The translations under genes and the position numbers were made by a program. A stretch of 64,000 nt of DNA from Dermatophagoides farinae. Taxonomy: Eukaryota > Arthropoda > Arachnida > Sarcoptiformes > Pyroglyphidae. Where the stretch lies: contig NC_134681.1 of assembly GCF_024713945.1 (NCBI RefSeq), forward strand, positions 620,001 through 684,000, read 5' to 3'. The notes beneath the pieces are model-generated. The model did not search any database. It was not told the origin of the DNA and worked only from the letters and a program-made list of their open reading frames with translations. This document shows positions 22,470 to 28,100 of this stretch, one piece after another. Each line of letters begins with the position of its first letter. Within the stretch, counting starts at the first letter, position 1.

Positions 22470-22474
22470 CTTTT

Positions 22475-22613
22475 TATTAGACATTTAGTCAGACTTGGAA
22501 CAAAATAATTTTTAATAATTATAACATAGCTAACAAGCTTTCAATATATATATATTCAATAATTCAATTACAAACATAACTGAATGATTGTTGTTAAAAT
22601 AACAACCTCAACA
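22475..22613 (-). repeat. 3' LTR of the copia element
   Basis: This 139-bp direct repeat is identical to 24986-25124 except at 22520. On the element strand it begins TGTTGAGG, next to the GGGGGAG polypurine tract, and ends TCTAATA. It carries the TGA stop of the element ORF at its very start. Confidence 0.95.
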
Positions 22614-24854
22614 CTCCCCCGTTTTAACAAAATCATACAATGATAAATTTTCGACAAAAGATATATGATTCTTCCGACTTAGTAGTTTTGTTAAAACGTC
22701 CACCAATTGTTCTTCAGAAGACATCCACTGTATAGACAATCGTCCACGTTGAATTAAATCAAGTACCATTAAAAACTTAATATTGATAATATGTCGCAAA
22801 TTCAGAGAAACATTCTCATCCAGTTGTTGTTTCATCACAGCCTGATTATTACGATTAATAACTAGTTTATCGATTCGAATCTCCAAATTTTCGAATAGGT
22901 TTACGATGAAACGAACATCTTTTAAACAAACAGACACAGAAATGAATCTGGTTTTTGCTGTGTTGTCGATGACACATTCATGCAAATTAGTCTTCCGAAT
23001 GATCGGGTCACCATATAAAACTATATGACCAGTTGATGTTGTTGTTGTTGTTCGACTATTTTCTTTTCCATCAACCAAAACAACATCAGGATTTGCTAAA
23101 CATTTCGGATTATCTCCACCAAGAATAATCTCAGACAAATATAACCAGGACAAATCTTTCACTCTTCCAGAAATAAACGAAGCCAACAGTGCATCGTCGA
23201 CATATAAACGAGAACATTCCTTATCCATAGCTTCACACCATTTCTCTGATTCATTACAATTAACGACCTTTTCATACGTAGAAGGTTCATAGCGTGCCAC
23301 ACACACATCAACAGTTGAACGTCCAGGAGATTGACTTAATGACTGAAGACGTTCTTCACTTTGTTGTTTTTTAGCACCAATTGGTTGGCCAGGATCACAA
23401 TGATTAGAAACAGGTTGATCTGGAACATGAAAATCACGGGAATCAACAAAAGAAATAACAGTGTTTGGTTCACTTCCACTACTGTTGACAGTTGTTTTGT
23501 TGACATTGGAACCAATGGACTGAACAAAACATTTTGGCTTCTCATCAGTATCCAAACGCAACTTCACAATATTTTTCGAAGAAGAAACATCAATTCTAAT
23601 TCGTAATTCAATAAGGTTCAGATATTCTGTGCTCCAATCACCAATAAGAATCGGATCTTCTTTGTGATAAATCGTGATACCATCATTGTTTGTCACACTT
23701 CTAACATTCTCCCGTCTACAAATTTTACCAATCGCGATAAGATTGAATGGTTGGCCAGCTACGTAATATACATCTCTTATTACCATTGGAACCCAACTTT
23801 TTCCATTAAACAATTGACATTTCATATCACCTTGTTCAGGACCATTGACCACACCACTCATCGTTATAATTTGATGACTTGTATTACGAATATTAGATAA
23901 CAACGATCTATCGTTCACAATATGATTGGACGCACCACAATCAGCTAAAAACTTCACCGAAGACACAGAGACCAAAGACAACGAAGATGACACATTCGAA
24001 GATAACTGATTCATATGACAATCAATATCAGAAATCTTAACAACAGCACTCAAACTTGCAAGTTTATTTTCATTGCTCGGTTTGGCTTCATTGTTCTGTT
24101 GACCACTTTTAGAATCGTTCATTTTCTTTCGGCAAAATTTTTCAATATGACCTTTAACACCACAATAATTACAATTACCATCAAATTTCTTCTTGTTCAA
24201 CAATACAGAAGAATTATTCGATTTAATTGTTGCGGCCAATGACGTATTTTGGGCAGAAAATTTCAAAATTTTCTCTCTCTCGAATCTCAATAATTCGGAT
24301 TCAAACTGTTTATCACTCATATAATCAGTTTCAGATCTTCCGCCATTATAGATGTCAACCATTTTGCACATCTCATCATATTCAGCGGGTAAAATAGCTC
24401 GAACTTTTGAATTAATAAAATAACTTGGCAGCTTAATATTTTTATCAGCAAAAGCTGCAAATAATTGCCGTAACTTCGCAAATAAACCTTGAATCGAGCC
24501 TTCAAACTTGATTGTATCAAAATCACGTAATAACTCCCAAGCAGACTTAGCACCTGGACCACGATATTTTCTGTCCAATTCACTAATCATTTCTTTAGGA
24601 TTATTACATTCCATAATACTTTCTAAATCTTCATTAGAAATCGACAATCGTATGATATTTTTAACCTTTGCGATACGACCTTTCTCTTCTTTTGTTATAG
24701 CTACATCGCCATTATTACGTATGTACTTGAAATCTTTAACAAAATCATCGAGATCTAGCGCTTCCAGAGCATCCAATAGAGTAACATACCATTGTCTATA
24801 CGTTACTTCGCCCAGTTTAAGGGTCTTAACAACATTAAATTCTTTATTGGACAT
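22608..24854 (-). CDS. Fused copia Gag-protease / RT-RNase H remnant polyprotein
   Basis: This is one uninterrupted frame of 748 codons from MSNKEFNVVKTLKLG. The frame stays open 27 codons further upstream to an ATG at 24935, but that extension is a hydrophobic leader translation and is less likely. Domain order: a copia-type Gag at about residues 1-215; a CCHC zinc knuckle CNYCGVKGHIEKFC near 226-239; an aspartic protease with active-site DCGAS near 305 (the usual hydroxyl residue after Asp is Cys here); and a protease tail to about 420. It then passes without an integrase core to the RT N-terminus (PSTYEKV...WCEAMDKE, about 525-545), YVDD near 550, and a degenerate RNase H end (HIINIKF, SSEEQLVDVLTKLL). 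The GAG-preIN motif, integrase DDE core and RT palm before YVDD are absent. The stop TGA lies in the 3' LTR. It could act as a Gag/protease donor or be non-functional. Confidence 0.85.
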   Translation of the reverse strand: MSNKEFNVVKTLKLGEVTYRQWYVTLLDALEALDLDDFVKDFKYIRNNGDVAITKEEKGRIAKVKNIIRLSISNEDLESIMECNNPKEMISELDRKYRGPGAKSAWELLRDFDTIKFEGSIQGLFAKLRQLFAAFADKNIKLPSYFINSKVRAILPAEYDEMCKMVDIYNGGRSETDYMSDKQFESELLRFEREKILKFSAQNTSLAATIKSNNSSVLLNKKKFDGNCNYCGVKGHIEKFCRKKMNDSKSGQQNNEAKPSNENKLASLSAVVKISDIDCHMNQLSSNVSSSLSLVSVSSVKFLADCGASNHIVNDRSLLSNIRNTSHQIITMSGVVNGPEQGDMKCQLFNGKSWVPMVIRDVYYVAGQPFNLIAIGKICRRENVRSVTNNDGITIYHKEDPILIGDWSTEYLNLIELRIRIDVSSSKNIVKLRLDTDEKPKCFVQSIGSNVNKTTVNSSGSEPNTVISFVDSRDFHVPDQPVSNHCDPGQPIGAKKQQSEERLQSLSQSPGRSTVDVCVARYEPSTYEKVVNCNESEKWCEAMDKECSRLYVDDALLASFISGRVKDLSWLYLSEIILGGDNPKCLANPDVVLVDGKENSRTTTTTSTGHIVLYGDPIIRKTNLHECVIDNTAKTRFISVSVCLKDVRFIVNLFENLEIRIDKLVINRNNQAVMKQQLDENVSLNLRHIINIKFLMVLDLIQRGRLSIQWMSSEEQLVDVLTKLLSRKNHISFVENLSLYDFVKTGEC
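22614..22620 (-). other. Polypurine tract of the copia element
   Basis: GGGGGAG on the minus strand directly abuts the 3' LTR, the expected position for the plus-strand DNA primer in LTR retrotransposons. It is also translated here, as part of the last codons of the ORF. Confidence 0.8.
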
Positions 24855-24965
24855 TGTCGTAAAAATAAATATCGATACGGTAAAAAGATGATGATAACAC
24901 AAGAGTAAAAAAATAACAAGAATGACTAAGCACAAAGAAAAAAAAAACGAAACGTTAATTCGTAA

Positions 24966-24985
24966 GCAATACTAGGCCCATAACC
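24966..24985 (-). other. Copia-type primer binding site (initiator tRNA-Met internal segment)
   Basis: On the minus strand the bases immediately after the 5' LTR read GGTTATGGGCCTAG. This matches the complement of the anticodon-stem region of initiator tRNA-Met, which copia elements use as a half-tRNA primer instead of the tRNA 3' end. The match fades after about 11-12 bases. Confidence 0.75.
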
Positions 24986-25124
24986 TATTAGACATTTAGT
25001 CAGACTTGGAACAAAATAATTTTTAATAATAATAACATAGCTAACAAGCTTTCAATATATATATATTCAATAATTCAATTACAAACATAACTGAATGATT
25101 GTTGTTAAAATAACAACCTCAACA
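24986..25124 (-). repeat. 5' LTR of the copia element
   Basis: This 139-bp copy precedes the primer binding site and is followed outside by the CTTTT target duplication. It differs from the 3' LTR only at 25031. Confidence 0.95.
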
Positions 25125-28100
25125 CTTTTATTTTTTTCAAATTATAATTTTAGCAATTTGAACAAGTTTTTTTTGTTGCTATTTTCTCATAATTTGATTT
25201 TCATTGTCGATTTTGATGATGATGATGATGACAATGATCGGCTTTAAATACGATTAGATCGATTTCGACAAAGTCCAAGGTCATTATTTTAACAACAACA
25301 ACAACAACAAAAAAACAATGATTATTCACACACAGACACACATATATAAACACGCACGAGAGCTAAAAATTCATATAACAATGATCCAATGATCATTGTT
25401 CTGATTTTTTTTTATTTTCAATCTCGTTACATTTTTTTTTTGCTAACATAAACATTGTCGTGTGGTGTGTGTGTGTGTGTGTGGTCACATTGACCATCAA
25501 TAATAATAATTCATTGATGACGATGATTCAAGGAATGTATTATCATTATCATGTGCGTGTGTGTGTGTGTGTGTGTGTAAGTATGAATAACTTTGCAAAA
25601 AAAAAAGAAATGAATACAAGAGAACAAAATTAATCAATACCCGAGACACATTTTGATCAAAAAAAAAAAAAAAAAAAATTTTCATTTCACATTCATTTAT
25701 CATTCTTTTATTTCACGCCAATTGATATTGAACGATGATTATTGTCTGCAATATATGGCTTCATTTGAATGCATGTTGTTCGTCCAAAACAATAGATTCA
25801 ATCACAATGGTCATCTTATATATATATTTATTATTTTGGATTGCTGAATGAAAAAAAAAATTCGAATTGAAAACATCAAATTCCAAATTTGACAATTATG
25901 ATTATGATCATGATCAATGTATGATTGATTTTTGTGATCGTATCAACAATCAATGATGATGATGATGATAATAATGATGTGATTGGAACGACAATGCCAC
26001 TTTTTATCGATCTGAAAATTAAATATCCAACTTCATACTTCAGGTTTCTCTATTTTTTTTTTTTTTTTTTGATTCTAATTTAATCAATGATAATTATATT
26101 GAAACAAAACAAAAATTTGAAATTACGAAACTCCAAATCTTATCACAGGCTATTTATCTGTTTTGTTTCATCAAATGAATCACTGAATAGATTAATTTCT
26201 CGATTATATTAGTTGTGTGAGAAGAAAAAAATGAATTTTCCAATTGCCATTTAAAATGTCGAAATTTTTTTTTGCTCATTTTGTTTTTTTTGCATGTATC
26301 CACTTATAAAATCGAATGAATTTAGAATATCGAAAAATACAAATGCAAATTGATTTTGTCGCGTACCAATCATCGTCATAATTAAAATAAAATAAAAAAA
26401 TAAACAATGGCAATGCGATGCAATGAATCAAAAAAAAATCTTTGAATCAGTAAAAATTTTCATTGAAATTTTGTTTATTTCATTCATTCCAATCATTCGT
26501 TGACAAATTGATTTTGTCGCATATAAATTTCCATTATATTGATACTAAAAATATCCATGACCATGAATCAAAGACAATGAAAAAGAAAAAGAACACACCA
26601 GACCAAAAATTACCAATGACAATATAACAGTAAAAAATTCAATTCAATTTTTCAAATTCAAATATCCTGTCCTATTCATTTAATGAAGAAGAACGAAACA
26701 AACAAAAGAAAATTTTTTTTTTTGTTCCCACTTGCCAAATGACCACCAATTTTAATGATAGTTTGTCAACAATATATATATATAATTAGATGATAAATCA
26801 ATTGATAGGAAATTGAAATTTTTACAAACAAATTGAAAAAAACAATATGAATTGATTATCAAGTGTTTATCAAATTTTTTTTCCATTGCCTTGTTTTTAT
26901 TTTGTTGTTGTTGTTGGTGGTGGTGGTGGTGGAAAATGCATATGTATATTTATCATTTAATCGTAATAAAAATATCAACAAACAATAAACGCAAATGATG
27001 GTCATCGCCTATTTTGGTTCGCGGACACCATTATTATCATCATCACAATTAATGTCGATCACAAATCGTAAAAAAAGAAGAAAATCTCCACCTATTTTTT
27101 TTTGATTTTCATTTGTGATTGTTTCACATATGAAAAATTTCTAAAAAAAAAAATTTCACGAGTTTTGATGATTTTATCAATAAAATCGCTGAATATTTGA
27201 GTTTTTTTTTTGAAATACATGATATGGTGTGGATTAAACGAAAAAAAAACTCGTGATACTAAATCAGTTGAAAGAAAAAGACAAAATTCGTACTAAGAAA
27301 TCGATGACGATTAACAAAATGATCGTCGTTGAAAATAAATCTTTCTGGCCATTCTGTTTGATCCACAGGTGCCGACATCCATTCAATATTTGGATTTTTT
27401 TTTTGTTGTTGTTGTTGTTGTTGATTGATCTCTTAGTTTTTGATTCACACTCACTCACGAACGCACACAAAAAACATGCCGACATACGCACACACACACG
27501 CACACACTATTATCAAATCATCAACAATTGATCGATCTATGAAGATCAATCAGTTTTATTAAAAAATATATGCATAGAAGATTTTCTGTCTGATTATTAT
27601 TTGGAAATAAAAACAACAATAAAAACAAAAAAAAAACAACGGCGTTGGCGATACAACAACGCCCTAAATCATATATAGTCGATCACATTTATCGTTTGTG
27701 AATGTGAAATTTTTTTTTTGTTTTTTAAATTTCGATAAGATTGATAATCATCGATCTTTCAATTGTTAATTATCGATCATTCGTAATCTTGAGTTTGAGT
27801 GAGAAAAATTTTTTCTCAAAATAAAAAATAAGATCAAGCATTGTTTCCATTGCCGTATTTGTCCGAATTAACCTTGAAAATATATTAAAGAAAAAATTTT
27901 GTTAGTTTTTGGAAAATTTCCCAGTGAATTTGTGGGGGGGGGGGAAATCTTCATCCTTGCTCAGAAGCAACACATAGCTTCTGTGATTAAGTTTTGAATG
28001 AAAAGAATGGAATGCAATACATTTTCATAACTATTTGATCCATCATCAAATCATGGCAATGGATTACGAATCACACATACACACACACACACAATGATGG

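Follow-up and report, generated by a model that had tools for sequence, protein, structure and literature searches.

The window is a 64,000-nt stretch of the Dermatophagoides farinae genome, and its minus strand carries a copia element of 2,650 bp (hereafter W) with one stop-free ORF. Sequence comparison places the two copies of its target site duplication, CTTTT, at positions 22470–22474 (left) and 25125–25129 (right). They enclose a 5′ LTR at 24986–25124 and a 3′ LTR at 22475–22613, both 139 bp long on the minus strand and separated by a single mismatch. A preliminary description of the locus had reported the same LTR difference and an intact 5-bp duplication, which we confirm, and its reading of a recent insertion is supported by both. 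The LTR starts with TGTTG and ends with CTAATA, so that the usual CA end is not kept. The LTR pair and 5-bp target duplication are those of a Ty1/copia element; the Gag–protease–integrase–RT order of this group is present in the relatives L009 and L013, and W is without integrase and most of RT. We rejected the possibility that W is a domesticated host gene, because both its LTRs and its target duplication are still intact and date from a recent insertion.

Directly after the 5′ LTR lies the primer binding site GGTTATGGGCCTAG (24972–24985, minus strand), which we take to be a copia-type half-tRNA site; its sequence recurs unchanged in L009, L010 and L011 and almost unchanged in L013. The ORF (22608–24854, minus strand) runs for 748 codons from an ATG at 24852–24854 to a TGA that forms nucleotides 4–6 of the 3′ LTR and thus ends 6 nt inside it; counted from the first TTG, it covers 22608–24935, or 775 codons, and is again stop-free. 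Every other frame of the same stretch, five in all, is interrupted by 30 to 101 stops. A Gag CCHC zinc knuckle, CNYCGVKGHIEKFC, was recognized by eye at 24132–24173 (minus strand), where Pfam gives no match, and the protease active-site motif FLADCGASNH at 23922–23951 (minus strand) is identical in L009, its FLADCGAS part agreeing with the intact relatives. Pfam places Pol_BBD, a protease-type barrel, above its cut-off (E 1.7e-10). Copia Gag scores 23.1 bits and so misses its cut-off of 27; two further sub-cut-off matches, to Rax2 and DUF3217, look like chance.

Beyond the protease, the ORF is a chain of pol remnants, all on the minus strand, whose joints we describe relative to L009. Identity to L009 drops at the joint of deletion 1 (213 bp) and its island KLRLDT (23547–23585). 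The remnant of the pre-RT stretch and the RT start follow at 23217–23546, with deletion 2 (633 bp) on their 5′ side and a 9-bp deletion within. A YVDD island (23151–23216) is flanked by deletion 3 (480 bp) and deletion 4 (357 bp), and an RNase H remnant extends from there to the stop (22608–23150), altered by deletion 5 (15 bp) and by two insertions, one of 12 bp and one of 3 bp. The preliminary description had listed Gag, protease, an RT start, YVDD and an RNase H end in one unbroken ORF, and all are found, with YVDD as an isolated island and RNase H eroded: AEAEF has become AKTRF and CDNQ has become RNNQ, motifs that presumably contain the RNase H catalytic residues. Pfam finds no RVT_2 or rve match in W at E values up to 1, whereas in L009 and L013 the same scan detects RVT_2, SH3 and pre-integrase at scores that pass the cut-off, and an integrase core that narrowly misses it. 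The reported loss of integrase and most of RT is thus borne out and supports non-autonomy: W lacks the complete RT and integrase of an autonomous copia element and can probably no longer copy itself.

A search of the assembly (62.4 Mb, 22 contigs) identified two full-length relatives, L009 and L010, which are 99.4% identical to each other and each have an identical LTR pair, and a more distant full-length relative, L013. L010 carries one TAG within the matched stretch and none downstream of its ATG. The assembly also encodes a homologue of group-2 mite allergens that matches Der p 2 and Der f 2, though it is identical to neither, and that probably points to an astigmatid mite. L009 and L010 resemble W in the primer binding site, in a nearly identical Gag–protease part and in an ORF that stops at the LTR edge, but they are 4.35 kb long with integrase, RT and RNase H. 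W and L009 differ at 32 of 139 LTR positions, at 38 of 1,421 positions in the part that reaches from the primer site to deletion 1, and at 143 of 885 positions in the pol remnant. For the 3′ half of W outside the LTR, the assembly search returned no relative above 82% identity over more than about 100 bp. This half with its junctions is unique to the W locus, and the LTR type is shared only with the truncated copy L011 (3 of 140 positions different), which also has the gag of W and about 9 bases in common past the first deletion joint before it ends.

The suggestion that W belongs to a successful non-autonomous family therefore draws a little strength from L011, with its shared LTR, gag and first junction, but the complete junction set occurs once in the assembly, at W itself, and a multi-copy family with this structure is not supported. 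L011 (L011:353-5992) and a second truncated copia piece (L032:578-6264) each show one LTR and lie between direct repeats, which measure about 2.0 kb (96%) around L011 and 1.5 kb (98%) around L032; the repeats around L011 are target DNA. Both structures perhaps reflect one-ended integration with end joining.

By these comparisons W is a mosaic: the part from the primer site to the protease is 97% identical to an intact relative, and the LTR and pol remnant are far less so. By the retroviral mechanism, LTRs are rebuilt from the template ends, and the first change in identity, at the LTR/primer-site border, is what a single template switch during minus-strand synthesis would give for this reason. 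The second change falls at or within deletion 1, and within gag the groupings among W, L011, L009 and L010 conflict. We infer that Gag–protease was exchanged by template switching between the W lineage and an L009/L010-like lineage, either of which may have been the donor, with a joint at or inside deletion 1. Sequence comparison also makes the pol remnant of W older than its Gag–protease.

The same frame is open on either side of every indel that separates W from L009, so that 8 of 8 keep the frame, with a chance expectation of (1/3)^8 = 1.5e-4. Because the lengths of the five larger deletions were measured between peptide anchors in open frames, they can only be multiples of three; the informative point is that homologous codons on both sides share one open frame. 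L009 is only an approximate parent, 16% different in pol, and the true parent of W is absent from the assembly, so the number of deletions is a reconstruction against a diverged relative in which adjacent deletions may be non-independent.

Substitution patterns separate the two parts of the ORF. In RNase H, dN/dS is 0.04 between L009 and L012 and 0.28 between W and L009; the W–L009 values for the RT start and Gag–protease are 0.71 and 0.23. A branch model of four sequences assigns omega 0.78 to the W branch against 0.07 elsewhere (p 3e-9), and the value of 0.78 is indistinguishable from 1 (p 0.73). Residues invariant in three relatives have changed in the W remnant at a rate similar to that of variable ones (27 of 117 versus 10 of 51). 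Under such neutrality the pol remnant should contain 3 to 7 stops, and it contains none; in simulations of 600 runs for each setting, the probability of zero stops ranges from 0 to 0.05 with base composition and branch length. As far as codon comparison goes, Gag–protease of W is under purifying selection, and the pol remnant drifts near-neutrally in its residues yet stays open in frame.

W is one of 11 defective LTR-paired copia elements in our partial survey of the genome. Pol_BBD occurs at 48 places in the assembly, 27 of them within the loci that we fetched; the remaining 21 comprise 11 with open frames of at least 1,256 codons, 7 of fragment type and 3 short ones. The count of 11 leaves aside L011 and L032 (one LTR seen), L033, L034, L038 and L044 (no LTR pair in the stretch fetched), L030 (complex and cut by the end of the stretch), L042 (full length with a broken frame, LTRs 97%) and the older pieces L012 and L014–L019. 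LTR searches with four families turned up further pieces in the L041 and L036 families; for L029 and L050 they gave no additional LTR pair. Multi-copy Pol_BBD fragments with open frames near 139 codons were considered as counter-examples, of which L048 and L049 have no LTR pair and were set aside uncounted. L048 (C3:883500-888000) and L049 (C4:1489000-1493500) are a repeat whose two ends resemble each other in inverted orientation, with a dead copia protease fragment inside, and several near-identical Pol_BBD places like them suggest a multi-copy element of another type.

Six of the 11 elements are open from LTR to LTR: W, L028 (803 codons), L031 (852 codons), L050 (L050:2034-6335, C10; 1,259 codons), L051 (L051:1883-6289, C3; 1,244 codons) and L052 (L052:859-5197, C8; 1,259 codons). 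Relative to L029, L028 has lost 1,332 bp in a single deletion; L031 has three deletions relative to L041, of 480, 18 and 816 bp. In all six open elements, the ORF ends at most 10 nt from the 3′ LTR or inside it. Two more are nearly open: the frame of L045 (777 codons) stops 179 nt short of the LTR, and that of L046 (735 codons) stops 275 nt short of it. The other three, L047, L039 and L053, are broken, with LTR identities of 100%, 100% and 99.6%. Five-bp target duplications accompany W, L028, L031, L045, L046, L047, L039, L050 and L051, with a candidate in L052; no clear one was found for L053. L045 (L045:1486-4331, C4) and L046 (L046:858-3673, C6) are two recent copies of one defective family (dN 0.0026, dS 0.0187, 668 codons). 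Their protease-like part lacks the usual aspartate, their integrase similarity is weak, and Pfam detects no RT in them. In the recent element L047 (C3:1845000-1850500; LTRs 100%), an insert of about 200 bp (around L047:2463-2942) separates the gag–protease from the pol parts and breaks the frame; it has weak condensin/HEAT similarity below the Pfam cut-off and is perhaps a captured host mRNA.

L050, L051 and L052 are recent copies of one family that serves as an internal control. Pfam sees only a protease barrel in which the usual aspartate is replaced (AGYGTS), and a profile search detects an eroded integrase; within the ORF, protease and integrase similarity occurs twice in tandem. The family has omega 0.79 (p 0.25 versus 1) and no stops where 5 to 9 are expected. 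Its fourth copy, L053 (L053:400-3842; C4:2065000-2069300; the same locus as L035), has LTRs 99.6% identical and 25 private deletions, mostly clustered in the middle third of the interior, with no private insertion; 7 of the 25 are multiples of three. Every private indel of the open copies, 6 in total, is a multiple of three; the ORF contains 4 of these and the leader 2. In-frame indels within the ORF thus number 4 of 4 in the open copies versus 7 of 25 in broken L053 (p 0.014), a contrast weakened by the leader indels, which are also multiples of three where frame is irrelevant. Pooled with W (8), L031 (3) and L028 (1), all three reconstructed from relatives, the 4 ORF indels of this family bring the in-frame total to 16 of 16.

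How W came to combine a lost pol with an open frame has several possible answers. The preliminary description had offered, besides a family, an origin from copia subgenomic RNA that was spliced down to Gag–protease and then copied into cDNA. According to excerpts of PMC11835246, Drosophila copia produces such a form, in which Gag is accompanied chiefly by the protease portion of Pol, by splicing its full-length RNA, and W, with its Gag and protease region and most of Pol absent, resembles it and would give a similar product. However, none of 9 deletion intervals (5 in W, 1 in L028 and 3 in L031) has GT–AG borders at any equally good breakpoint; for W the parent is only approximated by L009, but the L028 interval also lacks them although its relative L029 is about 99% identical. 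W moreover has several DNA deletions with islands in between. On the GT–AG result we reject a splice origin, which is now barely credible. The description had itself set a unique junction set without splice signals against its proposals, and this is what we find, so both of its named mechanisms lose; its further statement that frame-keeping through several deletions is unlikely by chance is, by comparison, upheld with moderate confidence by the 8 in-frame indels and absent stops, and gains because other defective copia elements of this genome also show frame-keeping.

Two explanations compete more closely with selection on the frame. The frame might be kept for its residues, if a fusion of Gag, protease and pol remnant aided assembly or interfered with a helper; Gag–protease is indeed under purifying selection (dN/dS 0.23), and excerpts of PMC8458377 describe a truncated Gag product that restricts Ty1. 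But an omega not different from 1 in the remnant, changes at invariant residues as frequent as at variable ones, and an L050 family that stays open without any Gag, integrase or RT recognized by Pfam make a functional fusion improbable. We give somewhat more weight, while still thinking it unlikely, to chance with recent origin, in which a deletion-ridden cDNA kept its frame by luck or has had too little time to gather stops: the simulated probability of no stops reaches 0.05, L028 requires a single 1-in-3 event, broken recent copies exist, and W was picked for study on account of its open ORF. Set against this are the in-frame indels of W (8 of 8) and L031 (3 of 3) and the stops missing from the L050 family. 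We conclude with moderate confidence that frame-keeping exceeds chance and is wider than W alone, and we lean slightly towards selection on the open frame as such.

Among known systems, TR-GAG elements of plants are non-autonomous LTR elements with only a GAG domain between their LTRs. W likewise keeps Gag, but it adds a protease and a pol remnant in the same frame, and its host is an animal; it falls outside the definition by a GAG domain alone. To our knowledge, large retrotransposon derivatives and TRIMs have no coding capacity; W would share with them LTR-flanked mobility in trans, whereas its interior is filled by one ORF. The copia-type BARE2 of barley cannot make Gag and parasitizes BARE1, according to excerpts of PMC3735527; W would similarly rely on the proteins of another element, but BARE2 lacks the Gag product that W keeps, and W has lost pol. 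Our literature search, which covered few subscription journals, recognized no paper on frame-keeping non-autonomous copia elements.

On sequence evidence, we put at about even the chance that W is a helper-dependent, non-autonomous copia element from a lineage selected for RNA that can be read from end to end. W would have moved with RT and integrase given in trans by L009/L010-like elements, a helper mobilization that we infer because its LTRs are recent and the enzymes are missing. Its RNA would have been selected for uninterrupted reading that begins at the start of Gag and finishes at the stop on the edge of the 3′ LTR, irrespective of the residues after the protease. The likeliest agent, which we nevertheless regard as doubtful, may be nonsense-mediated decay (NMD), by which a premature stop, leaving a long 3′ untranslated stretch, would expose the RNA before packaging; NMD is a natural candidate because, if translation stopped after the protease, about 1 kb of the RNA would remain untranslated. 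The pressure for an open frame would not be absolute, because the broken elements L047, L039 and L053 can be recent insertions. More broadly, and tentatively, defective LTR retrotransposons of the D. farinae genome may be selected for end-to-end translatable RNA whose content is irrelevant. On this reading the open frame would help the element survive by acting in cis, probably under the control of host mRNA surveillance, and the L050 family, with three recent copies of 1,244–1,259 open codons, would be the extreme case.

Non-autonomous retrotransposons are usually pictured as requiring just their ends and packaging signals. If several lineages hold on to the frame as their residues drift, translatability itself would be a selected trait of the transposing RNA, and transposon evolution would, if this is true, be tied to mRNA surveillance. 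Finding that a transposon derivative has a long open frame is, then, no proof that its protein works.
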